NCBI GenBank assembly: GCA_029219245.1
Contig: JAQXTA010000050.1
Span: forward strand, 62,001 to 126,000
Reading direction: 5' to 3'
DNA: 64,000 nt
DNA from: Lachnospiraceae bacterium
GTDB taxonomy: Bacteria; Bacillota; Clostridia; Lachnospirales; Lachnospiraceae
Shown in pieces: positions 31,824-47,159 of the stretch (its first letter is position 1; each line of letters opens with the position of its first letter). Below the pieces are notes generated by a model. It made no database searches and was not told where the DNA came from. It saw only the letters and a program-made list of their open reading frames with translations. Position numbers and translations under genes: made by a program.

Positions 31824-31891
31824 GAGGTGCAAAACGCAAAACAGAAGGAGCAATTGACTCTTTGGCAAGAATACTTGAAGAGGTGCAATAA
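31824..31891 (+). pseudogene. Possible C-terminal stump of a coupled gene
   Basis: The frame ending at TAA 31889-31891 reads RGAKRKTEGAIDSLARILEE, then VQ, a helical coding-like tail. Its stop overlaps the ATG of the next gene (TAATG), an arrangement typical of translational coupling. No start or 5' part is present. The rest of 31677-31823 shows nothing credible. Confidence 0.3.
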
Positions 31892-32163
31892 TGAAAGTAG
31901 ATGAAATTATTTTAGGAATAAAACAAGTAAGTAGTAATCCAGAATCCATATTCAGCTTATATGAAGAAGCTGAAAAACTGTCAGAAGATGATAGGGAGAA
32001 AATTAGAAATAGTGGATATGGTGAATCTCTTTATATGATTTATTCAGGAGCAATAGATATGATGGAAAAAGGTACATGGGATAACTATGTAGAAGAATGC
32101 AAGAGTCGCAGGAAAAAGACAGCAGAAGAAATAAAGATGGAACTTCTGGAGAAAGAGTGGTAA
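31891..32163 (+). CDS. Small hypothetical protein
   Basis: A 90-residue, mostly helical, charged protein (SLYEEAEKLSEDDREKIRNS, then a Lys/Glu-rich C-terminus). The ATG overlaps the preceding frame's stop (TAATG), with AGAGGTG upstream. A terminator hairpin begins inside its last codons. Not recognised; neighbours suggest it belongs to a decayed mobile island. Confidence 0.55.
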   Translation: MKVDEIILGIKQVSSNPESIFSLYEEAEKLSEDDREKIRNSGYGESLYMIYSGAIDMMEKGTWDNYVEECKSRRKKTAEEIKMELLEKEW

Positions 32164-32254: not shown

Positions 32255-32538
32255 ATGCAGGACTGTGAAGTAGATATTTTAGGAACTAAATATAAAATTT
32301 CCATATGTAAGGAAGCGGAACACGAACTATTAAAAGGAAAATATCGTGATGGTTGCACAGATAAGTATAACTTAACAAAGTATGATGAGTTTGAGCCTGA
32401 CCAGATTGTACCGGATGGCTACTTTGGATTGTTCAGGTTGGTGCTTACAGGAGCTTTAGAAATGCACAGAAGCTGCACGACAGACTTGAAAAGATGGGAG
32501 TCATTTCTTTAATCAACAAGTATAAAGTAGAAGAATAA
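32255..32538 (+). pseudogene. Frameshifted gene remnant ending in a SPOR-like domain
   Basis: Frame 1 begins at ATG 32255 (QDCEVDILGTKYKISICKEA), resembling the N-terminus of small phage or ICE proteins. From about 32401 the coding signal moves to another frame and reads WIVQVGAYRSFRNAQKLHDR, then LEKMGVISLINKYKVEE, to a stop at 32536. The second part is the tail of a SPOR-type domain, as found at the end of phage or cell-wall amidases. So this is a join of two partial genes or a frameshifted one. The 85-codon single frame is not a real protein. Confidence 0.6.
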
Positions 32539-32973: not shown

Positions 32974-33002
32974 TTGACATATATATCAGATTGATACATA
33001 AT
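32974..33002 (+). promoter_or_regulatory. Promoter of the polyferredoxin-padR operon
   Basis: TTGACA (32974-32979), a 17-base spacer, CATAAT (32997-33002). The leader to the first gene is about 60 bases. An inverted repeat overlaps the spacer and the start region. Confidence 0.8.
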
Positions 33003-33023
33003 CAATATATCAATATGATATAT
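32981..33023. promoter_or_regulatory. 16-bp inverted repeat, likely PadR operator
   Basis: ATATATCAGATTGATA (32981-32996) and TATCAATATGATATAT (33008-33023) pair at 15 of 16 positions. The repeat covers the promoter spacer, -10 and start, a repressor position. The PadR protein encoded second in this operon is the natural binder. Confidence 0.65.
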
Positions 33024-33066
33024 TTTGTGCTAAGATTTATATAAAAGGGAAAGGAACAAAAGTAAA

Positions 33067-33807
33067 ATGAAAAGACAACAAATCAGAAAACTTCTCCTTA
33101 TCATTTCTTTGATGCTGTTTCCAATCATAGCTTGGTATTTTTCACCATATCTGATTATACAGGGAGCAACGGAGGGAATCATTAACGGTAGTTTTATTGT
33201 GTTTTGCACGATGCTTGTCGGGTCGGTGTTCTTTGGCAGAATGTTTTGCGGATGGCTCTGCCCGATGGGCGGTATGCAGGAATGTCTCATGGCAGTGAAT
33301 GACAGACCGGCGAAGCAGGGGTGGCGTAACAGGATCAAATACATCATCTGGACAGTGTGGATTATGGCAGTTATTCTTTGTTTTGTCTTTCACAAGGGTA
33401 AAATACAAATGGACTTTTTCTATATGACTGACCATGGCATTTCGGTTGCTGATATCTACAATTATGTCATTTACTATGGTGTCATTTTCCTGGTATTGAT
33501 TCCTGCCGTCATCGGTGGACGTAGGACCTTTTGCCATTATTTTTGCTGGATGGCACCTTTTATGGCAATCGGAACGAAGGTGCGGAAGTTTTTACATCTT
33601 CCGGGTTTACATATCAAAGCGGAGAAGGAAAAGTGTATTTCTTGTAAAAAATGTAATCGGTCCTGTCCTATGGGACTGGATGTATGTACGATGATATCGG
33701 AGGAAAAGGACTTCGGGACAGAATGCATTCAGTGTGGTGTGTGTGTGGACAACTGTCCGAAAAAAGCACTTGCCTTTCGTATGGGATATTCTGATAAAAT
33801 GAAATAG
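33067..33807 (+). CDS. NapH/CcoG-like membrane polyferredoxin
   Basis: A 246-residue membrane iron-sulfur protein: about four to five helices, a CxxxCP motif after the second helix (FCGWLCPMGGMQE), and two C-terminal 4Fe-4S motifs (CISCKKCNRSCP and CIQCGVCVDNCP). Such proteins pass electrons across or along the membrane to redox partners. Its partner is not encoded nearby. RBS GGGAAAGGA. Expression is probably controlled by the PadR protein that follows. Confidence 0.85.
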   Translation: MKRQQIRKLLLIISLMLFPIIAWYFSPYLIIQGATEGIINGSFIVFCTMLVGSVFFGRMFCGWLCPMGGMQECLMAVNDRPAKQGWRNRIKYIIWTVWIMAVILCFVFHKGKIQMDFFYMTDHGISVADIYNYVIYYGVIFLVLIPAVIGGRRTFCHYFCWMAPFMAIGTKVRKFLHLPGLHIKAEKEKCISCKKCNRSCPMGLDVCTMISEEKDFGTECIQCGVCVDNCPKKALAFRMGYSDKMK

Positions 33808-33841
33808 CATCAGTAATAATGAAAGAGCAGGAAAAAGAAAG

Positions 33842-34390
33842 ATGGCAAATACGAAAAAAATGGATTATGTGATTATGGGGCTCTTAGACCATGAACCATT
33901 GACCGGCTATGAGATTAAGAAAAGAATGGATACGACACTGCGGTTTTTCTGGGGCGGAAGCTTTGGCAGCATTTATCCCACATTGGCAGAACTGGAAAAG
34001 ACCGGAAAGGTGGTCCGGGAAGATGCAAGTACGAACGGGAGAGAAAAAATAAGCTATTCGCTTACGGATTCCGGACGGAAAGCGTTAAAGGAATGGCTGA
34101 AGGAACCGGTGGAAAAGGATGAAATCCGATATGAAACACTTCTAAAGCTGTTTTTCGGAATGGAAAACGGACTGGATGGAACGTTGGAGCATATCAATCG
34201 GTTTGAAGAGAAAATCAAAAGCGAGCTTCCTCTTTTACAGATGTCGGTTGAAAATCTTTCTCACATTTTGGAAGACGATACGCATAAATATTACTATTTG
34301 ACAGCATCCTTCGGGGTTAAGACGTACGAAGCATATCTTGAGTGGTGCGAGGAAGCAAAGAAAAGAATTGAGGAATGGAAACAGAAATGA
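33842..34390 (+). CDS. PadR family regulator with C-terminal effector domain
   Basis: A 182-residue regulator: N-terminal winged helix (MDYVIMGLLDHEPLTGYEIKKR, GGSFGSIYPTLAELEKTGKV) and a C-terminal helical Vir-type domain (about 95-180). Larger PadR proteins of this kind bind small molecules. It is 34 bases after the polyferredoxin and likely represses the operon through the inverted repeat at 32981-33023. Confidence 0.92.
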   Translation: MANTKKMDYVIMGLLDHEPLTGYEIKKRMDTTLRFFWGGSFGSIYPTLAELEKTGKVVREDASTNGREKISYSLTDSGRKALKEWLKEPVEKDEIRYETLLKLFFGMENGLDGTLEHINRFEEKIKSELPLLQMSVENLSHILEDDTHKYYYLTASFGVKTYEAYLEWCEEAKKRIEEWKQK

Positions 34391-34439
34391 AGGCTTAATT
34401 CTTTCCAAAAAATAAACTTTCTAAAGAAAATATAAATTG

Positions 34440-34466
34440 TTAGCACTCGCCATTGACGAGTGCTAA
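34440..34466. promoter_or_regulatory. CIRCE element (HrcA operator)
   Basis: TTAGCACTC-N9-GAGTGCTAA, an exact match to the CIRCE consensus. HrcA binds it and represses heat-shock genes at normal temperature. It overlaps the hsp20 promoter, so this small heat-shock protein belongs to the HrcA regulon. Confidence 0.97.
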
Positions 34467-34481
34467 CAACGGTGTTATAAC
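34453..34481 (+). promoter_or_regulatory. hsp20 promoter embedded in CIRCE
   Basis: TTGACG (34453-34458) lies in the CIRCE spacer and reaches the first base of the right arm; 17 bases on is TATAAC (34476-34481). HrcA on CIRCE would block the -35 box directly. A TATAAA at 34431 lacks a matching -35. Confidence 0.8.
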
Positions 34482-34507
34482 ATATATAGAACGAAGGAAA
34501 GAGAGAA

Positions 34508-34558
34508 ATGAATAAGAAACCAGAGTATCTTTTCCGTAGTTTGCAACATAATAAATAA
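34508..34558 (+). CDS. Possible 16-codon leader peptide
   Basis: ATG 34508 follows GAAGGAAAGAGAGAA. The frame MNKKPEYLFRSLQHNK stops at 34556. It lies between the hsp20 promoter and gene, ahead of a hairpin CGGCAT-AG-ATGCCG (34565-34578). It might be a leader peptide influencing hsp20 translation; evidence is only the ribosome site and position. Confidence 0.35.
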   Translation: MNKKPEYLFRSLQHNK

Positions 34559-34602
34559 ATGATACGGCATAGATGCCGCGTGTTTGAATGGAGGAATGAA
34601 TT

Positions 34603-35046
34603 ATGTTAATGCCTAGTATTTTTGGAGAAAGTTTATTTGATGATTTCTTTGATGATTTTGCACGTCCGGCACGAAGCGTTGCGAGATACAGCACTCCGAC
34701 CATGAACGTCATGAGAACAGATGTCAAGGAAGATGAAAACGGTTATGAGCTCCATATTGAGCTGCCGGGTTATCAGAAAGAAGATGTGAAAGCACAACTG
34801 AAAGACGGATACCTGACAATCAATGCAGAGAGCAATCAGAACAAAGACCAGAAAGATGAAAACGGCAAGTTTATCCGTAGAGAAAGATATTACGGAACCT
34901 GCAGCCGGAGCTTCTATGTAGGCGAGGATATTACAGAGGAAGATATCAAGGCGAAATTTGAAAATGGTATCTTAAAGGTTACAGTGCCTAAGAAAGAAAA
35001 GGCGCCTGCAGTAGAAGAGAACAAATATATAGCAATTGATGGCTAA
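34603..35046 (+). CDS. Hsp20 small heat-shock protein
   Basis: A 147-residue alpha-crystallin-domain chaperone (about residues 35-130; YELHIELPGYQKEDVKAQL, GILKVTVPKKE). It binds unfolding proteins and holds them for refolding by ATP-dependent chaperones. RBS GGAGG. Transcribed from the CIRCE-controlled promoter with a 115-base leader. Confidence 0.96.
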   Translation: MLMPSIFGESLFDDFFDDFARPARSVARYSTPTMNVMRTDVKEDENGYELHIELPGYQKEDVKAQLKDGYLTINAESNQNKDQKDENGKFIRRERYYGTCSRSFYVGEDITEEDIKAKFENGILKVTVPKKEKAPAVEENKYIAIDG

Positions 35047-35060
35047 AGAAAAATAATGTG

Positions 35061-35100
35061 TGGCCGCACTTACGAGTAAATCGTAGTGCGGCCATATTTT
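35061..35100. terminator. Terminator between hsp20 and yeiH-type gene
   Basis: TGGCCGCAC-(T)-TACGA with TCGTA-GTGCGGCCA around a GTAAA loop, then T-rich; serves the convergent genes. Confidence 0.9.
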
Positions 35101-35105
35101 TTGTT

Positions 35106-36137
35106 TTACCAGATTCCTAGTACATGCTGTAAAATGAGGCTGACGGCTGTAATGCCAACCCAGCAGCAGGCACCCATGATAATTGGTTTACCTCCGGTTT
35201 TTATAAGTTTGACGATATCGGTATTTAAACCGATGGCAGCCATAGCAAGGACAATGAAAAATTTACTCAGCTCTTTGACAGGTTTAAACACATCGGCGGA
35301 TACGCCCAGACTGACCGCGATTGTAGTAATGATGGAAGCGGCAATAAAATACAGGATGAAAAACGGAAAAATCTGCTTAAAGCTGACTTTCTTCCCATCA
35401 GTGCCGCTTTCCTTGCGGGTACGAAGAAAAGCAAGAACTAAGGTAATCGGAATAATCGCTAATGTTCTGGTCAGTTTGACGGTTACGGCTTTGTCCAGGG
35501 TAGCGCTTCCCAGATTCCACATACTGTCCCATGTAGAGGCGGCCGCTGTTACGGAAGAAGTATCGTTGATTGCCGTCCCGGCGAAAATACCGAATGCATC
35601 ACCGGATAAGGTGTCAAAACCTACTAATTTTCCAAAGGTAGGAAAAAGAATTGCGGCGAGTACGTTGAAAAAGAAAATGACGGAAATAGCCTGTGCCACT
35701 TCTTCGTCATCGGCATCAATGACCGGTGCTGTTGCTGCGATGGCAGAACCGCCGCAGATAGAGGAACCTACACCTACCAGCGTGGAAATTTTAGATGGAA
35801 TGTGCATTACCTTATGCAAAACATAAGCAATGATAAGGGAAGTTGCAATCGTACACACAATAATCGGCAGAGACTGCTTTCCGGTTTCTAAAATGACATT
35901 CAGGTTCAGACCAAAGCCTAATAAAATAACGGCCCATTGCAGAATTTTTTTGGAAGTAAATTTGATGCCTTTTTCAAAGGAGCTCTTGTCCTTGAGAAAG
36001 AGAGTTACAATCATACCGGCAAGAATGGCAATAACGGCACCGCCGATAATCGGGAACTGCTTACCGAGAAACCAGGAAGGTACGGCAATCAGAAGGCATA
36101 ATAACAAACCTTTCGCATTTTGTTTCAGAAAACTCAT
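35106..36137 (-). CDS. YeiH/UPF0324 family membrane protein
   Basis: A 343-residue protein with about ten membrane helices of the UPF0324 family, often annotated as a putative sulfate exporter. Family features include [19 protein letters not shown] and GAAINDTS-like [17 protein letters not shown]. The substrate is unproven. ATG 36137 follows GGAAAGGA on the minus strand. The divergent gap to the next gene (36138-36368) carries a 15-base tandem repeat (AAAACATTGTAGA, 36241-36268) and a TATAAT box at 36216. Confidence 0.9.
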
Positions 36138-36368
36138 AAATTTTTTGTCCTTTCCATTAACTATTCTTTGTATTCACTATTTTTTGTGTCCATGATATGT
36201 TTTATTACATTTTGCTATAATAGTCAAATTTTTTTAGTAAAAACATTGTAGATGAAAACATTGTAGAAAGATATTCTCATGGGGAAAAGGTGTACATATT
36301 TGCGTTTCTTTGGTAAAATAAAAAAGAATATATCTGAAAGAATCAGTTGATAGAAAGAATAAAAATAG

Positions 36369-39104
36369 ATGGATAGGAAGAAATTGGTTATTGGCATTCT
36401 GGCTCATGTGGATGCCGGAAAAACGACATTAGCAGAAAGCATGCTGTATGTAAGCGGCAGTATCCGTAAAGCGGGCAGAGTGGACCATGGAGATGCCTTT
36501 TTAGATACGGACAGCCAGGAGAAAGAACGTGGTATTACGATTTTTTCAAAGCAGGCAGAATTTTCTCTTGAGGAAATGGATGTAACCTTATTAGATACAC
36601 CCGGGCATGTGGATTTTGGGGCGGAAATGGAGCGTACTCTTCAAGTACTGGATTATGCGATTCTTGTAGTCAGCGGCGCAGATGGTGTGCAGGGGCATGT
36701 GATGACGCTGTGGAATCTGCTGAAACGCTATCGGATTCCGGTCTTTTTATTTGTCAATAAAATGGATCAGCCCGGAACGGAGAAAAAGAAGCTTATGCAG
36801 GAACTGCAGGAGCGTTTAAGCGGGCAGTGCATTGATTTTTCAGTGGAACAGAATGAAACATTTGCGGAAAATATTGCTGTTTGCGATGAAGTGTTGTTGG
36901 AGCAATATCTGGAAAAGGGTGCTATAGAAGCAGAAGATATTGCAAAGCTGGTTGCCGGAAGAAAGATTTTCCCATGCTTTTTCGGTTCTGCACTGAGAAT
37001 CGAGGGTGTGGAAGCACTCTTGTCCGGTGTGAAACGATACAGTCTGCAAAAACGATATCCGGATGATTTTGCAGCCAGAGTCTTTAAGATTGCAAGAGAT
37101 GGGCAGGGAAACCGCCTGACTTATATGAAAATTACAGGCGGAAAGCTGAAGGTGAAGCAGACGCTGCAGAAAATAGAAGGTAGCAGAAATGGTGCATGGG
37201 AGGAGAAAGTCGACCAGATACGTATTTATTCCGGTGCAAAATACGAAACAATACCGGAAGCAGTGGCAGGAACAGTTTGTGCGGTAACGGGACTGGACCG
37301 GACTTATTCGGGAGAAGGACTCGGAACCGAGGAAGAGAGTGAAGAACCGGTGCTTACGCCGGTTATGACATATCGGATTCTTTTGCCTTTGGAAAGTGAT
37401 ATGCATATCATGTATAAGAAGTTATGTCAACTTGAAGAAGAGGAGCCGCAGCTTCACATTGTCTGGAAGGAACAGCTTGGTGAGATTCATGCCAAGCTTA
37501 TGGGAGAAGTACAGATAGAAATATTGAAAAGGCTGATTTTGGAGCGGTTTGGTGTGGAAGCAGAGTTTGATGAGGGAAGTATTGTCTATCAGGAAACGAT
37601 TGCTGTACCGGTAGAAGGAGTAGGTCATTTTGAACCGCTTCGGCATTATGCCGAGGTACATCTTTTACTGGAACCGGGTGAACCGGGCAGCGGGCTTGTT
37701 TTTGCAACGGACTGTAGTGAGGATATGTTAGATAAAAACTGGCAAAGATTGATTTTGACACATCTGGAAGAAAAGGAACATGTCGGAGTATTGACCGGAT
37801 CGCCGATTACCGATATGAAGATTACCTTAATTGCAGGCAGAGCCCATCAGAAGCATACCGAGGGCGGTGACTTCCGGCAGGCAACCTACCGCGCAATCAG
37901 ACAAGGACTTTGTCGGGCAGAAAGTATTTTGCTGGAGCCGGTATATGAATTCCGGTTGGAACTTCCGGCGGCTATGATTGGACGTGCTATGTCCGACATA
38001 CAGGCAAGAAAGGGAACTTTTGAACCGCCTGTGACCGAAGGGGAGATGGCAGTACTTAACGGTACGGCTCCCGTTGCAACGATGCAGGGGTATCAGAAAG
38101 AACTGGCAGCTTATTCCGGCGGCTGCGGCAGATTGTTCTGTAGTCTGAAGGGGTATGAGCCTTGTCATAATACACAAGAAGTCGTTGAAAAAATTGGTTA
38201 TGATGCGGAGCGGGATTTGGAAAATCCGGCGGCATCCGTTTTTTGTGCCCATGGTGCCGGTTTTCTGGTAAAATGGGATGAAGTAGAAAATTATATGCAT
38301 GTGGAAAGTCCTTTGGGCAAATCCGGGACAGCGGATTTGGAAATGCAGGACTGGCTGGATGATGGAAGAGAACCCTATGGAAAGGGTTGCCGGGCTGGCA
38401 GCAGCAGAACGGCAGCTTATGACTTTGATGCAGGCCGACAGGAGGACAAAGAACTGGAAGCCATTTTCAAACGTACCTACGGAACGGTTGAACGGCAGAA
38501 ACCGGGGTATCAGAAGACGATTCATGCACGAAAGGATACAGCCGGTTCGACAGGCAGATCGAGACCTCTGTCAGAGGAACAAAAACAGGAGTATCTGTTA
38601 GTAGACGGCTATAATATTATTTTTGCATGGGAAGAATTAACGGAGCTTGCCAAGGTAAATCTGGACAGTGCCAGGGGAAAGCTGATGGACATTCTAAGCA
38701 ACTATCAGGGCTATCGGCAGATGACTTTAATTCTTGTTTTTGATGCATACAAAGTAAAAGGAAATCCGGGCAGTACGTTCCCTTACCATAACATTCATGT
38801 GGTCTATACAAAGGAGGCAGAAACAGCAGATCAGTACATCGAGAAGGTAACGCATGAGATGGGCAGAAAATACCGGGTTACGGTAGCTACTTCGGATGGA
38901 CTTGAGCAGCTCATTATTATGGGACAGGGCGCACGCAGAATGTCTGCTCGGGAATTAAAAGATGATATTATGTCAACTAATGAAGAACTGCGGGAAGAAT
39001 TTCTGGAAAAACCCGTAAACGGAAAACAATATCTTTTTGACAAGCTTCCGGAAGAATTGGCGGAGCATATGGAAGATGTCAGGTTAGGAAAAAAGGAGTT
39101 TTAG
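36369..39104 (+). CDS. Tet(M)/EF-G-like GTPase fused to NYN (YacP/Rae1-type) nuclease domain
   Basis: A 911-residue fusion. Residues 1-650 are a translation-factor GTPase of the Tet(M)/Tet(W) branch: G1 AHVDAGKTTL, G3 DTPGHVDF, G4 NKMDQPG, domain IV with KITLIAGRAHQKHTEGGDFR, and the C-terminal AHGAGFLVKWDEVE. After a polar linker, residues 741-890 are a NYN/PIN-like domain of the YacP (Rae1) type: YLLVDGYNIIFAWEEL, ILVFDAYKVKG, ETADQYIEKV, VATSDGLEQ. Rae1 of Bacillus cuts mRNA in the ribosomal A site, where EF-G-like factors also bind. The fusion may couple ribosome rescue to mRNA cleavage. It lies 7 bases before an alarmone synthetase. Confidence 0.85.
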   Translation: MDRKKLVIGILAHVDAGKTTLAESMLYVSGSIRKAGRVDHGDAFLDTDSQEKERGITIFSKQAEFSLEEMDVTLLDTPGHVDFGAEMERTLQVLDYAILVVSGADGVQGHVMTLWNLLKRYRIPVFLFVNKMDQPGTEKKKLMQELQERLSGQCIDFSVEQNETFAENIAVCDEVLLEQYLEKGAIEAEDIAKLVAGRKIFPCFFGSALRIEGVEALLSGVKRYSLQKRYPDDFAARVFKIARDGQGNRLTYMKITGGKLKVKQTLQKIEGSRNGAWEEKVDQIRIYSGAKYETIPEAVAGTVCAVTGLDRTYSGEGLGTEEESEEPVLTPVMTYRILLPLESDMHIMYKKLCQLEEEEPQLHIVWKEQLGEIHAKLMGEVQIEILKRLILERFGVEAEFDEGSIVYQETIAVPVEGVGHFEPLRHYAEVHLLLEPGEPGSGLVFATDCSEDMLDKNWQRLILTHLEEKEHVGVLTGSPITDMKITLIAGRAHQKHTEGGDFRQATYRAIRQGLCRAESILLEPVYEFRLELPAAMIGRAMSDIQARKGTFEPPVTEGEMAVLNGTAPVATMQGYQKELAAYSGGCGRLFCSLKGYEPCHNTQEVVEKIGYDAERDLENPAASVFCAHGAGFLVKWDEVENYMHVESPLGKSGTADLEMQDWLDDGREPYGKGCRAGSSRTAAYDFDAGRQEDKELEAIFKRTYGTVERQKPGYQKTIHARKDTAGSTGRSRPLSEEQKQEYLLVDGYNIIFAWEELTELAKVNLDSARGKLMDILSNYQGYRQMTLILVFDAYKVKGNPGSTFPYHNIHVVYTKEAETADQYIEKVTHEMGRKYRVTVATSDGLEQLIIMGQGARRMSARELKDDIMSTNEELREEFLEKPVNGKQYLFDKLPEELAEHMEDVRLGKKEF

Positions 39105-39111
39105 AGTATAC

Positions 39112-39813
39112 ATGGAGAATCGTATTTGGGAACAATTACAGACAAAATTTGTGAGAGAGAGTATTTTATCGGATAGTTTCCTGGATTTTATGCAGGAAAA
39201 TAAACTGCCGGTGGATACTATGATGGCATATTACCGTTGTGCCATTATGGAGGTTGAAACCAAGTTTAAGGTGCTCAATGAGCAGTTTTCTCTCCGTTAT
39301 GACCGTAATCCGATTGAAAGTATCAAGACGCGAATCAAGTCGATGGAAAGCATTATGAAAAAGGTGCGGAATAAAAATCTGCCCCTTTCGCTTTCGTCAA
39401 TTGAAGAAAATATCCGGGATGTGGCAGGTGTACGGGTTGTCTGTTCTTTTCTGGATGATATTTATATGCTGGCAGACTGTTTGTTGCAGCAGGACGATAT
39501 TACATTATTGGAGAGGAAAGATTATATTCAGAATCCGAAAGAAAGCGGATACCGGAGTCTGCATCTGATTGTTGAAGTACCAATTTTTTTGCAAAATGAG
39601 AAGCGAAATATGAAGGTAGAAGTGCAGCTTCGGACGATTGCTATGGATTTCTGGGCGAGTCTGGAGCATAAGTTGCGCTATAAGAAAAATATTCCGGAGG
39701 AAGAAGCGGAACTGCTGGCAAAAGAAATGGTAGAATGTGCCAAAACAAGTGCCGCGCTGGACAGTCGGATGCAGGATATCAAAAATCGCATTGTGATGGG
39801 GGAAGAGGATTAA
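39112..39813 (+). CDS. Small alarmone synthetase (RelQ/YjbM type GTP pyrophosphokinase)
   Basis: A 233-residue single-domain (p)ppGpp synthetase lacking hydrolase, TGS and ACT domains. Conserved: RIKSMESIMKK, IRDVAGVRVVCSFLDDIYML, NPKESGYRSLHLIVE, EVQLRTIAMDFWASLEHKLRY. It follows the GTPase-NYN gene by 7 bases and precedes the antiporter operon by one base, so all are probably one transcription unit. Confidence 0.93.
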   Translation: MENRIWEQLQTKFVRESILSDSFLDFMQENKLPVDTMMAYYRCAIMEVETKFKVLNEQFSLRYDRNPIESIKTRIKSMESIMKKVRNKNLPLSLSSIEENIRDVAGVRVVCSFLDDIYMLADCLLQQDDITLLERKDYIQNPKESGYRSLHLIVEVPIFLQNEKRNMKVEVQLRTIAMDFWASLEHKLRYKKNIPEEEAELLAKEMVECAKTSAALDSRMQDIKNRIVMGEED

Positions 39814-39814
39814 A

Positions 39815-40276
39815 ATGTATTTGTTGTATTTTTGCCTATGGGTTATTTTTAATGGAAATCTGACACTTGAAATTGTTATTTTCGGGCTTGTAATTGCTGC
39901 AGTAATGTTTGCCTTTACCTGTAAATTTGCCGGTTACAGCGTGGCAAAAGAAAAAAGGCTTATCCGAAATATATTCCGTATTATCCGGTATATCATTGTA
40001 GTAGTGGTTGAGATTGTAAAAGCGAATCTGGCAGTGATACATCTGATTTTAACGGAAAAAGAGGAAGCAGAGCCAATGCTTGTAACCTTTCAGGGGGATT
40101 TGAAAACCGGAATCGGACAGGCATCATTAGCCAATGCAATTACGCTGACACCGGGAACCATTACGGTTTTGTTAGAAAACAATACCTATACGGTGCATTG
40201 TCTGGATGAAACGTTTGCAGAGGGAATTGACAGCTCAGTATTTGCAGATCGGTTAAAAGAAATAGAAGAACATTAA
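39815..40276 (+). CDS. Mrp/Mbh antiporter subunit E
   Basis: A 153-residue MnhE-like membrane protein: three helices at the N-terminus, then a cytoplasmic domain with the signature ANAITLTPGTITV. It starts one base after the alarmone synthetase stop with GGGGGAAGAGG as ribosome site. First of the multi-subunit cation/proton antiporter genes. Confidence 0.93.
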   Translation: MYLLYFCLWVIFNGNLTLEIVIFGLVIAAVMFAFTCKFAGYSVAKEKRLIRNIFRIIRYIIVVVVEIVKANLAVIHLILTEKEEAEPMLVTFQGDLKTGIGQASLANAITLTPGTITVLLENNTYTVHCLDETFAEGIDSSVFADRLKEIEEH

Positions 40277-40289
40277 AGAGTAGGAAAGA

Positions 40290-40646
40290 ATGGAGGAAAA
40301 GATGGGAAAGGGAATTCAGGGGCTGGAGCAGGCATACCATGTTTTATTTGTGGCAGTTCTGATTGTACTGGCGATTATGGTTATTCTGTGTCTGATTCGT
40401 GCCATTATCGGACCTCGTGTAGCAGACCGTATTGTGGCAACGAATATGATGGGAACGATTGTTATGGTCATCATTGCGATTCTTGCCATTATGCTGGAAG
40501 AAGGTTATCTGGCAGACATCTGTATTATTTATGCGATGATAAGCTTTCTTGCGGTAATTGTACTGACGAAGGTTTACATGGGCGTTTACCGGGAGAGAAA
40601 ACAGGAAAAAGAAAAGAAGGAGGAAGGAAAAGATGGAAATCGTTGA
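40290..40646 (+). CDS. Mrp/Mbh antiporter subunit F
   Basis: A 118-residue MnhF-like protein with three helices; the typical segment IIGPRVADRIVATNMMGT is present. A second ATG at 40302 is also well placed behind GGAGGAAAAG, so the first four residues are uncertain. The end overlaps the next gene by 14 bases. Confidence 0.92.
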   Translation: MEEKMGKGIQGLEQAYHVLFVAVLIVLAIMVILCLIRAIIGPRVADRIVATNMMGTIVMVIIAILAIMLEEGYLADICIIYAMISFLAVIVLTKVYMGVYRERKQEKEKKEEGKDGNR

Positions 40647-40992
40647 ATGGATACGCTTCCTTTTGGGTGCATTGTTCCTGCTGTGTGGTCTGGGAATTTT
40701 TGTGATAGAGTTGATAGGTGTTTTCCGCTTTCAGTATGTTTTAAACCGGATGCATGCGGCTGCCATGGGAGATACCCTCGGAATTGCATTTTCTTTTTTG
40801 GGACTGATTATCATGAATGGTTTGAATTTTACATCCCTAAAACTGTTCTGCGTCATTGCATTTTTATGGTTTTCTTCGCCGACCTCTTCGCATCTGATTG
40901 CAAGATTGGAGATTGCAACGGATGAAGAGAGGGATAAACATTATCGTACCATTCATTTAGAGAAAGCTGAAAAGAAAGCGGAGGAGAGATAA
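40633..40992 (+). CDS. Mrp/Mbh antiporter subunit G
   Basis: A 119-residue MnhG-like protein with three helices (FRFQYVLNRMHAAAMGDTLG, SSPTSSHLIARLE). It lies inside the E-F-G order that is conserved in Mrp and in membrane-bound hydrogenases. Confidence 0.92.
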   Translation: MEIVEWIRFLLGALFLLCGLGIFVIELIGVFRFQYVLNRMHAAAMGDTLGIAFSFLGLIIMNGLNFTSLKLFCVIAFLWFSSPTSSHLIARLEIATDEERDKHYRTIHLEKAEKKAEER

Positions 40993-40993
40993 A

Positions 40994-41290
40994 ATGCAGC
41001 TGTTTACGGATGTTTTATTAGTTTTTTTAGTTATCTGCGCGATTGCAGCCAGCTTATCCAAAAATCTGTTAAATTCTATTTTGATTTTTATGTCGTACAG
41101 TCTGGTCATGTCCATCATATGGGTTTTGTTAGAGTCACCGGACCTGGCAATTACAGAAGCAGCAGTAGGAGCAGGAGTTACCAGTATTTTGTTCTTTGTA
41201 ACCCTGAAAAAAATACATGCAATGGTAAAAACAGATGAAAAGAAAGGGGAGGAAGGCCATGAGCAGAAAAGTTCCGGATCAGGAGTATGA
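40994..41290 (+). CDS. MbhD-like (DUF4040) subunit
   Basis: A 98-residue, three-helix protein of the DUF4040/MbhD family (SLVMSIIWVLLESPDLAITE AAVGAG region), equivalent to the end of MrpA in Bacillus-type Mrp. Separate MbhD genes are typical of archaeal Mbh/Mrp-like complexes. It overlaps the next gene by 32 bases. Confidence 0.85.
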   Translation: MQLFTDVLLVFLVICAIAASLSKNLLNSILIFMSYSLVMSIIWVLLESPDLAITEAAVGAGVTSILFFVTLKKIHAMVKTDEKKGEEGHEQKSSGSGV

Positions 41291-42227
41291 AAAAACACTT
41301 TCCTTTCACCTGAAGCAGTGGCTGGATGGAACAAAGGATTTCTATGTAGAACGTGTGGAAATGAAGCCACAGGAAGAATTTCATGAGGAAGAAAGCGTAA
41401 AAATTGACAGGAACAAAGAACGTAGACAACGGATGGCGAGAATTTATGATATTGCCAACAATTGGGAATTAACGGGATTTCGAAGATTTTACAAGATATT
41501 CTGCGTATTTTTCTGTTTGTTTCTGGTTTTTATGCTGTTAAGTGCCGTATCCTATATGCCTTCTTATGGACATCCGGAGAATCCGGTAAATAATGAGGTT
41601 TCGGAGAGGTATATTGAAAGTGGCATACAGGAAACCGGTGCGATAAATATTGTAACGGGTATGATTCTGGATTACAGAGCTTTTGATACGCTGGGAGAAT
41701 CGCATGTGCTTTTTATAGCAACTTGTACGGTTCTGATTTTGCTACGCAAGGACAAAAAGAAGGATGAAAACGGAAACGATATTGAAGAAAATGACCGTAT
41801 TTATGAACCCAAAAATGATTTGATTCTGCAGACGGCAGCGCGTATTTTAGTACCACCGATTATCATATTTGGTATTTATGTTATTCTCTGCGGTCATCTT
41901 GGACCAGGAGGCGGTTTTTCCGGCGGTGCGATTATCGGAGCAGGGTTGATTCTGTATCTGAATGCATTTGGGTTCAAAAAGACCGAGCGGTTTTTCTCGG
42001 AGAAAACCTATAAAAGACTCAGTGTGGGTGCTCTTGGATGCTATTGTCTTGCCAAAAGCTATTCTTTTTACACCGGGGCCAACCATATTGAAAGTGTGAT
42101 ACCCCTTGGAACACCGGGAAATATTATAAGCAGCGGGCTGATTCTGATTCTGAATATCTGTGTCGGTATTGTAGTTGCCGGAACGATGTACACCTTCTAT
42201 GTCATGTTCCGGAAGGGAGGCTATTAA
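41259..42227 (+). CDS. MbhE-MnhB fusion subunit
   Basis: A 322-residue protein. The middle part (about residues 75-170; ILDYRAFDTLGESHVLFIAT) matches MbhE, the last piece of MrpA, and the C-terminal part (VPPIIIFGIYVILCGHLGPG, then GGFSGGAIIGAG) is MnhB. These are two genes in Pyrococcus Mbh. The N-terminal 70 residues are charged and cytoplasmic. ATG 41259 follows GGGGAGGAAGG. Confidence 0.85.
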   Translation: MSRKVPDQEYEKTLSFHLKQWLDGTKDFYVERVEMKPQEEFHEEESVKIDRNKERRQRMARIYDIANNWELTGFRRFYKIFCVFFCLFLVFMLLSAVSYMPSYGHPENPVNNEVSERYIESGIQETGAINIVTGMILDYRAFDTLGESHVLFIATCTVLILLRKDKKKDENGNDIEENDRIYEPKNDLILQTAARILVPPIIIFGIYVILCGHLGPGGGFSGGAIIGAGLILYLNAFGFKKTERFFSEKTYKRLSVGALGCYCLAKSYSFYTGANHIESVIPLGTPGNIISSGLILILNICVGIVVAGTMYTFYVMFRKGGY

Positions 42228-42228
42228 A

Positions 42229-42606
42229 ATGAATTTTGCCAATTTATTATGTAATTATGAAGAGGCGGTGGCAATGATTTTATTTGGTATCGGCTTCTCG
42301 AATCTGCTGATGCAGAAAAATTTAATTAAAAAAATCATCGGTATGAATATCATGGACACGTCCATTTACCTTTTCCTGGCGGTAAAAGGGTATATTTCCG
42401 GCCGTAAGGCACCGATTGTAGTGGATGGGATACAGAGCGTGGAAGCCTATATTAATCCGATTCCGAGTGGTCTTGTTCTGACGGGAATTGTTGTGTCGGT
42501 ATCGGTAACGGCACTGATGCTTTCTCTGACAATACGATTATATAACCGTTATCATACACTGGATCTGGATGAAATCTCCACACAGTTAAAGAAGGAGGGA
42601 AGATAA
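42229..42606 (+). CDS. Mrp/Mbh antiporter subunit C (NuoK-like)
   Basis: A 125-residue three-helix protein of the MnhC/NuoK family (FGIGFSNLLMQKNLIKKIIG, NPIPSGLVLTGIVVSVSV). ATG 42229 is one base after the preceding stop with GGAAGGGAGG upstream. The last base overlaps the next ATG. Confidence 0.93.
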   Translation: MNFANLLCNYEEAVAMILFGIGFSNLLMQKNLIKKIIGMNIMDTSIYLFLAVKGYISGRKAPIVVDGIQSVEAYINPIPSGLVLTGIVVSVSVTALMLSLTIRLYNRYHTLDLDEISTQLKKEGR

Positions 42607-44114
42607 TGGAGTTTGTACAGAATTTTCCCTTTATGTCGATTATTTTATCCTTGTTTGCAGGTCCGGTTTCCACTGTTTTGAACGGAAAATGGGCAAAACG
42701 GCTGAATCTTTTTGTGATTACGGCAGTCGGCTGTATGTCGGCAGCAGTACTTGCCTTTGAACTGCGGACAAAACAGGAATATGTATATATGATGGGGCAT
42801 TTTCCGGCACCTTGGGGCAATGAAATACGAGTGGGTATTTTAGAGGCGGCAATGGCACTGTTTTTCTGCATTATTATGCTGCTGTGTGTGATAAGTGGTG
42901 TTCTGGAGAGAGAACGGGAAATTGAAGAGGGCAAGCAGAATCTGTATTACGTCATGGTAAATCTGTTGCTTTGTTCTCTGTTAGCATTGATTTATACCAA
43001 CGATTTGTTTACGGCGTATGTATTTGTAGAAATCAATACGATTTCCGCCTGCGGTCTGATTATGATAAGGCAGACAGGAAGAACCATTGAGGCGGCAACA
43101 CGCTATATGATTATGAGTCTTTTAGGTTCCGGTCTTCTGCTTCTGGGAATCTGTTTTTTGTATGGCCTGACAGGGCATTTGTTAATGAGCAATATTAAGG
43201 AACAGGTAGCTGTTTTACAAGCTTCGGGGGAATACCATATTCCGCTGCTGGTTGCTATTTGCCTGATGTCCGTAGGTATTGCCATTAAAAGTGCGCTTTA
43301 CCCGTTTCACACATGGCTGCCGGATGCTTATGGCTATTCCACTTTGTCTTCAGCGGCGATTTTGTCATCTCTGGTATCCAAGGGATATATTTTCCTGCTG
43401 ATTAAAATTTTTTACCGGGTCATTGGTTTCGATATCATCCGGGACAGCAAAGTCATCAATGTGCTGTTTGTATTTGGTATTGCCGGAATGATTATGGGGT
43501 CGCTAAGTGCCATTAAGGAAAATGATATTCGGAGAATGATAGCCTATTCTTCCGTAGCGCAGATTGGCTATATTTATATGGGATTTGGTCTGGGAACAAC
43601 GTTTGGCATCATTGCAAGTATTTATCATATCGTTTCGCATGCGGCAACCAAATCACTGCTTTTTGTGGCTGCTTCGGGACTGACCGATGCATCCGGTAAA
43701 AACAAACTTTTTGCGGAACTGACCGGTTCCGGCTACCGGAACAAACTGGCTGGGGTGGCATTTACGGTAGGCTCGTTGTCCATGGTAGGTTTTCCGATGT
43801 TTTCCGGTTTCATTTCCAAACTGCTATTTGCACAGGCAGCAATGGAAAATCAACATAAGATGTTAATTACGTTGATAGCACTGGCAATTAGTACGATTTT
43901 GAATGCGGTTTATTTTATGAAAACCGTTATCCGCATTTATACACCGGAGAAAAGGGAAGTTATTCAGGAAAAAGGATTTGATGATATTGCTTTCTGGGAG
44001 CAGCCGGTCAAAAGTGCTGCACTGGTATGCTTTATTGTGCTGAATGTTTTTTTGGGCTTAAGCTCAGAACCGGTTATTCATTTAATTCAAATCGGTCTTA
44101 GCATGTTTGCGTAG
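42606..44114 (+). CDS. Antiporter subunit D (first of three)
   Basis: A 502-residue NuoN/NuoM/MnhD-type proton-translocating protein with about 14 helices. The key lysine region is GIAIKSALYPFHTWLPDAYG, and the second is KENDIRRMIAYSSVAQIGYI. Such subunits move H+ or Na+ through broken helices. Directly follows subunit C. Confidence 0.92.
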   Translation: MEFVQNFPFMSIILSLFAGPVSTVLNGKWAKRLNLFVITAVGCMSAAVLAFELRTKQEYVYMMGHFPAPWGNEIRVGILEAAMALFFCIIMLLCVISGVLEREREIEEGKQNLYYVMVNLLLCSLLALIYTNDLFTAYVFVEINTISACGLIMIRQTGRTIEAATRYMIMSLLGSGLLLLGICFLYGLTGHLLMSNIKEQVAVLQASGEYHIPLLVAICLMSVGIAIKSALYPFHTWLPDAYGYSTLSSAAILSSLVSKGYIFLLIKIFYRVIGFDIIRDSKVINVLFVFGIAGMIMGSLSAIKENDIRRMIAYSSVAQIGYIYMGFGLGTTFGIIASIYHIVSHAATKSLLFVAASGLTDASGKNKLFAELTGSGYRNKLAGVAFTVGSLSMVGFPMFSGFISKLLFAQAAMENQHKMLITLIALAISTILNAVYFMKTVIRIYTPEKREVIQEKGFDDIAFWEQPVKSAALVCFIVLNVFLGLSSEPVIHLIQIGLSMFA

Positions 44115-44123
44115 GAGGGTATC

Positions 44124-45656
44124 ATGGAGAAGCATATTGTGAATTATTGGATTTTATTACCCATACTGTTATCCGGTATGACAGGAATCGGACTTCTTCT
44201 GTCTTCTCTGCGCGGACACATCAGAAACAAAGAGGAGAATGTGGCAGAAAAGAGCATGGCAGATAAAAGTTTGTTTCGCCTCCATCTGCTTGTAGGCATT
44301 GTACTTGTAATTTCGGTAGTACTTGCACTGCTTGCAGCTTGGTCGGGGGAAAGAAGCCTGACATTGTTTTACCTGATGGATGAGATTCCGGTCTATTTTC
44401 ATGTGGATGCCGTCGGCAGATTATTTCTGACAATCACCAGTATTGTCTGGGTGACGGTTGCCTTTTATGCTTTTGTCTATATGAAGCATGAGGGCGATGA
44501 AAAAAGATTTTTCGGCTTTTTTCTGTTACTGTATAGTGTGTTGGTTTCTTTGGATTTTGCAGGGAATCTGATTACGTTCTATTTCTTTTATGAATTGATG
44601 ACTTTAACTTCCATGCCGCTTGTTCTGCACAGCGGAACGAAAGAAGCCATTATGGCGGCTTTGAAATATTTGTTTTATTCGATGTTAGGTGCCTATTGTG
44701 CTCTGTTTGGTATTTATTTTCTTTACCAGAACTGTGACAGCCTTACCTTTACGGCGGGCGGCACCTTAAATGCGGGGCTGACAGCATCAAACAGCGGTAT
44801 TTTACTACTGGCTGTTTTTGTCATGTTAATTGGATTTGGTGCCAAAGCGGGTATGTTTCCGTTGCATGCATGGCTTTCCACTGCCCATCCGGTAGCACCG
44901 GCTCCGGCTTCGGCGGCGCTTTCTTCGATTATTGTAAAAAGTGGTGTGTTAGCACTTATCCGTAGTGTTTTTTACATTGTAGGACCGGAATTTATCCGGG
45001 GAACGTGGGTACAGAACGTCTGGATATTCCTGGCACTCTTAACTGTTTTTATGGGTTCTATGTTAGCCTATCGGGAGAAAGTATTCAAGAAAAGACTGGC
45101 CTATTCTACCGTCAGTCAGGTATCCTATATCTTATTTGGTTTATCGCTTTTAGAGCCAACGGCAATGGCGGGTTCTTTATTACATGTTGTTTTTCATGCT
45201 TTGATTAAGTGCTCGTTGTTTATGACAGCCGGAATCTTTATTTTCCGTACCGGAAAGACCAGAGTGGATGCGTATGACGGAATCGGCAGACAGATGCCGG
45301 TGACACTGTGGTGTTATACCTTTGCTTCCCTTGCCTTGATTGGAATTCCGCCAACCAGCGGCTTTGTGAGCAAGTGGTATCTGGCGCAGGGAGCCTTGCA
45401 GTCGGATACCGGAGTTTTCCGGATTTTGGGACCGGTTGTATTGTTAGTCAGCGCGTTGTTAACGGCAGGCTATTTATTACCGATTACCATCAAAGGGTTC
45501 CTGCCGGGAAAAGAGTGCAGGGTAGAAACCCAAAAAGAAACCATGGACAAGATGGTAATTTCGTTGCTTGTTTTGGCGGTGTTGGCAGTACTGCTTGGTG
45601 TCCTGCCCAATCCGCTGATACAATATGTCGGTGAAATCGCGGAATCGGTAATGTAG
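44124..45656 (+). CDS. Antiporter subunit D-like (second)
   Basis: A 510-residue second proton-channel paralog (GFGAKAGMFPLHAWLSTAHP, FKKRLAYSTVSQVSYILFGL). It carries its own ribosome site (GGAGGG) 9 bases after the previous gene. Sequence differs clearly from the first copy, so it is an old paralog and not a recent duplication. Confidence 0.9.
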   Translation: MEKHIVNYWILLPILLSGMTGIGLLLSSLRGHIRNKEENVAEKSMADKSLFRLHLLVGIVLVISVVLALLAAWSGERSLTLFYLMDEIPVYFHVDAVGRLFLTITSIVWVTVAFYAFVYMKHEGDEKRFFGFFLLLYSVLVSLDFAGNLITFYFFYELMTLTSMPLVLHSGTKEAIMAALKYLFYSMLGAYCALFGIYFLYQNCDSLTFTAGGTLNAGLTASNSGILLLAVFVMLIGFGAKAGMFPLHAWLSTAHPVAPAPASAALSSIIVKSGVLALIRSVFYIVGPEFIRGTWVQNVWIFLALLTVFMGSMLAYREKVFKKRLAYSTVSQVSYILFGLSLLEPTAMAGSLLHVVFHALIKCSLFMTAGIFIFRTGKTRVDAYDGIGRQMPVTLWCYTFASLALIGIPPTSGFVSKWYLAQGALQSDTGVFRILGPVVLLVSALLTAGYLLPITIKGFLPGKECRVETQKETMDKMVISLLVLAVLAVLLGVLPNPLIQYVGEIAESVM

Positions 45657-45669
45657 GGAGGGAGAGAAA

Positions 45670-47145
45670 ATGAATGCATATTTTATGGTAATTGCAGTGT
45701 TGCTGCCGATGCTTGGCGGTGTGTTAATTCCTTTGCTGCCTTTCCGGAAAAGAAATACGATGCTTGTCTATATTGAGTTTTTAGTATTGGTGACTTCTCT
45801 GCTGGTGTTTGGCTTGATTTTAAACAGACCGGAGGAAGCCTTTGTGCTGTTCCGATTTACCGGACAATTAAGCATCAGCTTTAAGTTGGATTCCGTAGGA
45901 AGCGTGTTTGCAACGATTGTGGCTTTTTTGTGGCCGTTTGCTACCCTATATTCCTTTGAATATATGAAGCATGAAGGTCATGAGAAAACTTTCTTTATGT
46001 TTTATATACTTACTTATGGTGTTACGCTTGGTATTGCGATGGCAGAGGATCTTGTTACCCTGTATTTCTTTTATGAAATGTTAACCATGGTAACCTTGCC
46101 GTTAATTCTGCACACGCTTACAAGAGAGGCGGTTCTGGCGAGTCGGACTTATATGTATTATTCGCTTGGCGGAGCAGCTTTTGCCTTTATCGGCTTGATT
46201 TTTATTTTAACCTATGGAACGACACCTGATTTTACGCCGGGTGGTGTCATTGATATGGCAAAGCTGGGAGGTCGGATGAACTTACTGCTTTGTATTTATG
46301 TGCTGTGCTTCTGCGGCTTCAGCGTCAAAGCAGCAATGTGTCCGTTTTCTGCATGGCTGCCCAAAGCCGGTGTTGCACCGACTCCGGTAACGGCATTGTT
46401 ACATGCGGTAGCCGTTGTAAAAGCGGGAGCATTTGCAACGTTGCGTGTGACGTATTTCAGTTTCGGAACAGAGCTGTTACGGGGAACCTGGGCGCAGCAT
46501 CTGCTTATGATACTGATTATCTTTACCATTGTATTCGGCTGTAGCCGGGCCTTGAAGGAAACACACTTGAAACGTCGGCTGGCGTGGTCAACGGTAAGTA
46601 ATCTTTCCTATATTTTGTTTGGCGTAATCCTGATGACACCACTTGGTTTATACGGTGCATTAAGTCATATGGTGTGTCATGCCCTGATGAAAATCTGCTC
46701 CTTCTTCTGTGCGGGAGCCATTATTTACAAGAGTGGAAGAACCTATATCCATCAGTTGAACGGCTTTGGAAGAAAGATGCCGAAAGTTTGCAGCATTTTT
46801 GCAATATCCGGTATGGCACTGATGGGAGTGCCGGGCTTATGCGGCTTTGTCAGCAAATGGAATCTGGCAAAGGGAGCCGTAGAAAGTGGCAATCCGCTTG
46901 CCTACGCAGGACTGGCGGCGATTTTGATTTCTGCACTTTTAACGGCTATTTATATGATGAGTATTGTGGTACGGGCATTTTTCCCGGGAAAAGATTTTGA
47001 TTACAGTACTATCGGTGATGTGGAGGATCCGAACTGGATGATGCTTCTTCCGCTGACGGTATTCGTTATTCTTATGTTTGCAATCGGATTGCATCCACAG
47101 TTTCTTACCGATGCGCTGACCAATGTGGTAGCAGCGGTATTCTAG
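45670..47145 (+). CDS. Antiporter subunit D-like (third)
   Basis: A 491-residue third paralog (GFSVKAAMCPFSAWLPKAGV, LKRRLAWSTVSNLSYILFGV). Note cysteine in place of the usual residue before PF. 14 bases after the second copy, with GGGAGGGAGAG as ribosome site. Confidence 0.9.
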   Translation: MNAYFMVIAVLLPMLGGVLIPLLPFRKRNTMLVYIEFLVLVTSLLVFGLILNRPEEAFVLFRFTGQLSISFKLDSVGSVFATIVAFLWPFATLYSFEYMKHEGHEKTFFMFYILTYGVTLGIAMAEDLVTLYFFYEMLTMVTLPLILHTLTREAVLASRTYMYYSLGGAAFAFIGLIFILTYGTTPDFTPGGVIDMAKLGGRMNLLLCIYVLCFCGFSVKAAMCPFSAWLPKAGVAPTPVTALLHAVAVVKAGAFATLRVTYFSFGTELLRGTWAQHLLMILIIFTIVFGCSRALKETHLKRRLAWSTVSNLSYILFGVILMTPLGLYGALSHMVCHALMKICSFFCAGAIIYKSGRTYIHQLNGFGRKMPKVCSIFAISGMALMGVPGLCGFVSKWNLAKGAVESGNPLAYAGLAAILISALLTAIYMMSIVVRAFFPGKDFDYSTIGDVEDPNWMMLLPLTVFVILMFAIGLHPQFLTDALTNVVAAVF

Positions 47146-47159
47146 GGAGGGAGAAGAGA

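Follow-up and report, generated by a model that had tools for sequence, protein, structure and literature searches.

Rae1 (YacP) of Bacillus subtilis has been described as an A-site endonuclease (PMC6613710, PMC12320835), and is named as capable of attacking mRNA in the A site (PMC12320835). Proteins in which a Tet-like GTPase is joined to a YacP-like NYN domain are also on record: Atkinson 2015 (BMC Genomics 16:78, PMC4342817) reports them from "ten species of clostridiales", classes them as Tet in a brief treatment under tetracycline resistance, and suggests an RNase-based mechanism of resistance. In our literature search no other paper was seen that describes the fusion (a mention may exist in Condon 2018, which deals with how Rae1 is distributed), and no functional test of the fusion was found. 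Here we analyze a fusion of the same architecture – an EF-G/Tet-like GTPase and a YacP-like NYN domain in one chain – encoded in a 64,000-nucleotide stretch of DNA from a Lachnospiraceae bacterium (the window: assembly GCA_029219245.1, contig JAQXTA010000050.1, positions 62,001 to 126,000). The architecture is known and not new; what we add is its distribution, its probable single origin, its exclusion of the standalone nuclease, the divergence of its tip loop and the existence of unfused relatives. With modest confidence, we read the fusion as a resident Rae1-type, ribosome-dependent mRNA endonuclease, fused to an EF-G-like GTPase that takes the nuclease to the A site.

The gene is a single open reading frame without interruption, and its parts are as follows (residues are those of the 911-amino-acid (aa) product):

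36369..39104, + strand: fusion gene, 911 aa; EF-G-like translational GTPase, linker and YacP/Rae1-type NYN nuclease
36384..37040, + strand: G domain, residues 6-224 (Pfam GTP_EFTU, E 1.7e-51)
37068..37310, + strand: EF-G domain II, residues 234-314 (Pfam EF-G_D2)
37356..37571, + strand: EF-G domain III, residues 330-401 (Pfam EFG_III)
37578..37919, + strand: EF-G domain IV, residues 404-517 (Pfam EFG_IV), containing the loop GHFEPLRHYAEV
37845..37877, + strand: domain IV tip loop, H493-x-K-H-T-E-G-G-D-F-R503 (alignment)
37929..38174, + strand: EF-G domain V, residues 521-602 (Pfam EFG_C)
38175..38306, + strand: C-terminal extension, residues 603-646, SVFC.HGAG..V.W..V...MH (alignment)
38313..38588, + strand: linker, residues 649-740, mostly predicted disordered (alignment, AlphaFold2)
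38427..38480, + strand: linker helix, residues 687-704, with an ELxxIFxRTyG-like motif (alignment, AlphaFold2)
38595..39083, + strand: NYN_YacP (Rae1-type) nuclease, residues 743-905 (Pfam, E 1.8e-52), with acidic residues D746, D792, D821 and D843

A preliminary description of the window had proposed a GTPase fused to a YacP/Rae1-type NYN nuclease, and profile searches bear this out: Pfam EF-G domains span residues 6-602, NYN_YacP spans 743-905, and all six Pfam domains exceed their curated cut-offs (domains II and III barely; NYN_YacP with 178.2 bits against 24.6). The G1, G3 and G4 motifs are present and are followed by domains II-V in EF-G order, as in the EF2 family. In a PDB sequence search the GTPase part matches EF-G and TetO/TetM structures (E down to 3.5e-72), and the sole significant matches of the nuclease part are B. 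subtilis YacP/Rae1 (5mq9 and 5mq8, E <1e-25). The likeness to Rae1 is confined to the nuclease domain (E 4.5e-26, four aspartates and the 26 conserved positions described below): Rae1 is a free protein of ~170 aa, whereas here the Rae1-type domain is the C-terminal part of a 911-aa GTPase protein. Structure prediction of both domains, which the same description had proposed as a check, returned two well-folded parts (AlphaFold2 with 83 sequences; mean predicted local distance difference test score (pLDDT) 86.1, predicted template modelling (TM) score 0.68). Since the linker is disordered (pLDDT <50 at 652-688 and 708-734, with the helix 687-704 inside the linker), the model says little about the relative placement of GTPase and nuclease; pLDDT is also <50 at 883-888. 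The 50 listed of 1,956 Foldseek matches are EF-G/EF-2 type structures (TM by query length 0.32-0.56), and no nuclease structure is among those 50.

Conservation was assessed over an alignment of 81 fusions, comprising the window protein and the best 80 of 114 relative loci found; these 80 were picked by likeness to the query, and the sample is therefore biased to close, full-length relatives (the best named being mostly Lachnospiraceae). Matches continue past residue 859 in 78 of the 80, while L031 and L060 end at a contig end inside the nuclease; in L076 the frame stops near residue 833 and the tblastn match continues to 876. Because 78 of 80 relatives match beyond residue 859, the fusion is no assembly accident. 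GTPase residues K18 (79/79) and H80, N130, K131 and D133 (81/81 each) are invariant. The nuclease aspartates, whose loss in homologs would have spoken against a catalytic NYN domain as first described, are kept wherever the sequence reaches them: D746 in 81/81, D792 (DAYK) in 80/80, D821 (ETAD) in 80/80 and D843 (SDG) in 79/79. L002 is the nearest relative, and comparison with it gives 92% identity and a ratio of nonsynonymous to synonymous substitution rates (dN/dS) of ~0.031 for the nuclease core (741-870), 84% and ~0.067 for the GTPase and extension, and 52% identity for the linker, where dS was not estimable; these ratios are rough, with dS ~1.5 for L002 and mostly saturated or not estimable in the other three pairs.

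Two points bear on whether the fusion carries out the work of Rae1: the retention of the Rae1 family pattern, and the occurrence of a free copy beside it. On the first point, 84 fused and 24 standalone proteins have in common 26 nuclease positions that are at least 90% identical in both sets: these include the catalytic acidic residues D7, D53, D81 and D104 (B. subtilis Rae1 numbering), together with W15, R30 and Y40. A further 29 positions are conserved solely among the fused proteins and five solely among the standalone. The 26 shared positions indicate that the Rae1 family pattern is kept beyond the active site.

On the second point, 293 genomes of the window's class were searched, for the nuclease family by its profile and for the GTPase by a profile of the extension. 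The nuclease family was found in 192 genomes (191 above cut-off) and the extension in 125. Both halves lie in one frame in 103 genomes: 13 of these were called fused from a frame of 789-937 aa, the nuclease row lying beyond the matches listed, and for six the two matches fall in the same short frame (313-734 aa), which was taken as sufficient. The halves are separate genes in 13 genomes and lie in different frames in one (G235); 74 genomes hold the nuclease only (44 frames listed, none >216 aa; the match in G261 is sub-threshold), seven hold a GTPase of the fusion subfamily with no NYN_YacP match (in G203 in two frames), and 94 hold neither half. The fusion is common among the sampled genomes of this class, and of the 118 genomes that hold both parts 103 have them fused, contrary to the possibility, raised at the outset, that they might be separated in most relatives. 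That similar fusions may exist in relatives had also been foreseen: they do, and "may exist" proved an understatement for an architecture that is widespread and was in print in 2015 (PMC4342817). In the wider phylum the extension occurs in 18 of 249 genomes (five of the 18 already counted in the class), in frames that measure 857-911 aa in 16 cases and 651 and 657 aa in the remaining two; this count rests on the extension profile, the nuclease being searched in the class sample.

Standalone NYN_YacP above cut-off is present in one of the 103 fused genomes (G284) as compared to 88 of the 189 others (Fisher p 1.3e-19, shared ancestry ignored; G235 was excluded, and G206 and G261 were taken as standalone). 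The fused form thus excludes the standalone nuclease near-completely. G120, G174 and G208 seemed to hold extra nuclease copies as well; these were rejected, being matches of ~21 bits against a cut-off of 24.6. In five families both forms occur (fused/standalone: f1 12/1, f21 6/2, f22 1/4, f26 5/1, f45 2/1; family labels read by eye), and no genome of these families holds both, save for a remnant in G206. That genome has a 38-residue piece of the fusion's extension (L188, 4008-4121) and a free NYN_YacP on another contig; G017 and G047, of the same genus, carry the intact fusion. In the window genome (2.79 Mb, 73 contigs, ~90% complete) the fusion is the sole NYN_YacP match, and transfer-messenger RNA (tmRNA) is present.

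Because the Rae1 pattern is kept and the free form is excluded, we argue that the nuclease half may do Rae1's work. The same two results bear on another substrate: once delivered to the ribosome by the GTPase, the nuclease might process or degrade rRNA or tRNA, in maturation or in ribosome quality control, and leave mRNA alone. A role of NYN/YacP proteins in rRNA and tRNA maturation has been proposed (cited in PMC4342817), and EF-G-like proteins bind ribosomes whatever the substrate of an attached nuclease. We nevertheless regard this as distinctly improbable, given a conserved set of the Rae1 family that extends beyond the acidic residues, the almost one-for-one replacement of standalone NYN_YacP, and the statement that mRNA in the A site can be attacked by Rae1 (PMC12320835).

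The GTPase half has the EF-G domain order of TetM, TetO and TetS and is ~28-30% identical to them over residues 4 to 596-598. It differs in the tip of domain IV, in its C-terminal extension, in its clade and in falling short of the Tet cut-offs among the models listed. At the tip, HxKHTEGGDFR stands in place of the TetM-type YYSPVSTPADFR: in an alignment with TetM, TetS, TetO and an OtrA-like protein (TetM numbering checked), K495 falls in the column of TetM Pro509 and H496 in that of Val510. The tip loop H-x-K-H-T-E-G-G-D-F-R is exact in 78 of 81 fusions and H.KHT.GGDFR is found in 80 of 81; PLRHYAEV, in the domain IV loop GHFEPLRHYAEV, is exact in 77 of 81, and the TetM stretch SPVSTPADFR occurs in none of the 81. 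The 44-residue extension after domain V (603-646) is missing from all four Tet-type rows compared (TetM, TetO, TetS and OtrA-like). In a 62-row tree the four Tet-type rows group (100/98) apart from 56 subfamily rows (100/99), and the Tet clade is the nearest characterized neighbor among the few tested; with four sequences on the Tet side, and long branches for the OtrA-like and EF-G2 rows, the depth of the split is unsure. Of the earlier label 'Tet(M)/EF-G-like', the EF-G part therefore stands and Tet(M) is too specific, the clade lying apart from TetM/O/S and the OtrA-like protein. A safe name would be a Tet-like GTPase of a distinct subfamily.

These comparisons bear on tetracycline. Were the fusion an intrinsic ribosomal protection protein, to which the nuclease adds an RNase step as Atkinson suggested, the tip might be expected to resemble that of TetM, in which Pro509 displaces or overlaps the drug (PMC7456112, PMC8161019): in all 81 fusions that column holds Lys. 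The best NCBIfam match is indeed tet_protect, the Tet clade is the closest characterized one in our tree, and the fusions were classed as Tet (PMC4342817); yet the score of 404.7 bits is far under the cut-off of 775, and among the matches listed (best 25 of 36) the OtrA, TetM/W/O/S, TetQ and TetM models are likewise under theirs. The gene is also widespread and its neighbors vary, no Rfam family reaches its gathering score in 33000-47500 (and hence no known RNA leader is seen there), and a relative from Ligilactobacillus salivarius, despite its Tet product name, has no predicted-resistance row in the PLSDB table. A resistance function therefore seems to us very unlikely, in keeping with the first assessment, which argued against an acquired tetracycline gene.

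The unfused GTPases of the subfamily (20 class members, and WP_283475094.1 from L. salivarius) have the same domain order and C-terminal extension, and differ in that their frames of ~620-730 aa end after the extension, without a nuclease. All 20 from the class retain H.KHT.GGDFR, which makes the tip motif independent of the nuclease. In a midpoint-rooted tree these 20 fall outside the fused GTPases, of which 35 of the 81 were sampled; the fused proteins lie in one 36-row group (100/100) that also contains the L. salivarius protein, beside L063, with support 87/92 and a long branch. This protein (L112, 3998-5917), annotated as a TetM/W/O/S resistance protein, is encoded on a 214-kb plasmid; it does not have the TetM tip, and two residues of the H-x-K-H-T motif, the first H and the K, have been lost. 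It is likely, though not certain, that the gene was transferred and the nuclease subsequently lost. The nuclease tree agrees: all 38 fused nucleases sampled form one clade (100/100), with one standalone protein inside. The latter (L099, 1483-2004; genome G209, of the window's family) is a fused-type nuclease alone, of 173 aa and 62% identical to the window domain; a separate, unfused subfamily GTPase lies on a different contig of the same genome, and the gene thus appears to have undergone fission. With one clade for the fused form of either half, there was probably a single fusion event, rarely undone, with one clear later fission.

The persistence of the fusion bears on whether its halves need one another. 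They might act independently, such that fusion gives equal amounts or proximity to the ribosome, without any GTP-driven hand-over: the linker is long, variable (65-157 aa, median 88, across the 81 fusions) and mostly disordered, 13 genomes keep the halves as separate genes, and G209 has a free fused-type nuclease alongside a separate GTPase. Against this, the fusion persists across many families with both halves conserved, the trees contain only two departures (the G209 fission and the unfused L. salivarius protein), and the ELxxIFxRTyG-like motif of the linker helix is kept in 68 of the 81. Independent action is, we think, unlikely.

For a ribosome-dependent endonuclease delivered by its GTPase, the following order of events may be proposed. 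That the GTPase half acts on the ribosome would follow from its family; ribosome binding, the order of the GTP-dependent steps, A-site cleavage, the trigger and the hand-over to tmRNA are what we infer. The GTPase part would occupy the factor site of a ribosome that has stalled or paused and insert domain IV into the decoding center; GTP would then be hydrolyzed and the GTPase part withdrawn, whereupon the nuclease, on its flexible linker of ~65-157 residues, could enter the emptied A site and cut the A-site codon, leaving the ribosome for rescue by tmRNA. Sequential action over a flexible linker is proposed because competition between domain IV and the nuclease for the A site is to be expected.

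Several points weigh against this reading. The competition for the A site is itself a difficulty, the two-step order being an assumption. No GTPase partner appears in the passages that describe Rae1 of B. subtilis (PMC6613710, PMC12320835), and the GTPase may therefore not be needed for cleavage. The GTPase occurs without a tethered nuclease, in seven genomes as GTPase only and in 13 with the halves apart: the seven suggest that it may serve an independent function, with the nuclease as an addition. Genomes without the fusion show no clear co-travel of the halves (13 with both, 74 with the nuclease only, seven with the GTPase only), and the exclusion test (1/103 vs 88/189) takes no account of shared ancestry. 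Lastly, ribosome binding, GTP hydrolysis and RNA cleavage are all deduced.

A bolder proposal can be made, if tentatively. Dom34-Hbs1 and other no-go decay factors of eukaryotes tie a translational GTPase to the clearing of stalled ribosomes. The fusion could be a single-chain bacterial counterpart, in which the GTPase senses the stalled ribosome and clears the A site by GTP hydrolysis, and the tethered Rae1 cuts the mRNA for tmRNA rescue; separate GTPases with the same tip would then be a new, non-Tet class of stalled-ribosome factor, some perhaps partnering standalone Rae1. We think this possible, at rather less than even chances. The analogy is functional only and no homology is claimed: in the eukaryotic system GTPase and nuclease are separate proteins.

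The surroundings of the gene offer few constraints. Upstream is a divergent gene for a membrane protein with PF03601 (UPF0324), and downstream are:

39112-39813: small alarmone synthetase with a RelA_SpoT domain, starting 7 bases after the fusion stop codon
39815-47145: apparent cation/proton antiporter operon (Mnh/Mrp-type), first gene MNHE by Pfam and the rest by eye

The synthetase scores 178 bits with GTPPhKinYjbM, under the cut-off of 320. An operon of fusion and synthetase was considered and rejected, a homologue being present in one of 80 relative loci (L002), as was linkage to the antiporter, whose first gene is found in four of 80 (L003-L006); many flanks are short. When neighbors were clustered, the groups present in more than 10 loci had coordinates suggesting that they are overlapping reading frames within the fusion gene itself. 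Scans predicted 8 promoter and 8 terminator sites, as compared to 7.1 and 3.2 in shuffled sequence, and the result was not used. Two small adjoining frames at 31891-32163 (90 aa) and 32255-32512 (85 aa) have no Pfam match at E 0.001.

A mobile gene was considered as well, and rejected on the small number of plasmid and phage records covered to at least 80%: two of 1308 matching records in the plasmid collection (the one listed being a 518-kb Monoglobus record) and two of 114 in the phage collection. The chromosomal-style setting of the preliminary description is supported. Two unannotated human-faecal 'Bacteriophage sp.' records carry near full-length fusions: MT835563.1 (5421-7958; 57% identity, 94% coverage) and MT835514.1 (15279-17795; 50% identity, 96% coverage). 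The plasmid and phage copies are, we think, chromosome-like or passengers; those in the phage records would be either bacterial DNA assigned in error or genes carried along.

A natural fusion of Rae1 and an EF-G-like GTPase, present in many families and replacing the free form, makes the function of the pair directly testable. For surveys of resistance genes it is relevant that, as the analysis suggests, the tetracycline-resistance label that a large group of proteins from gut bacteria carry by class or by name may be undeserved.

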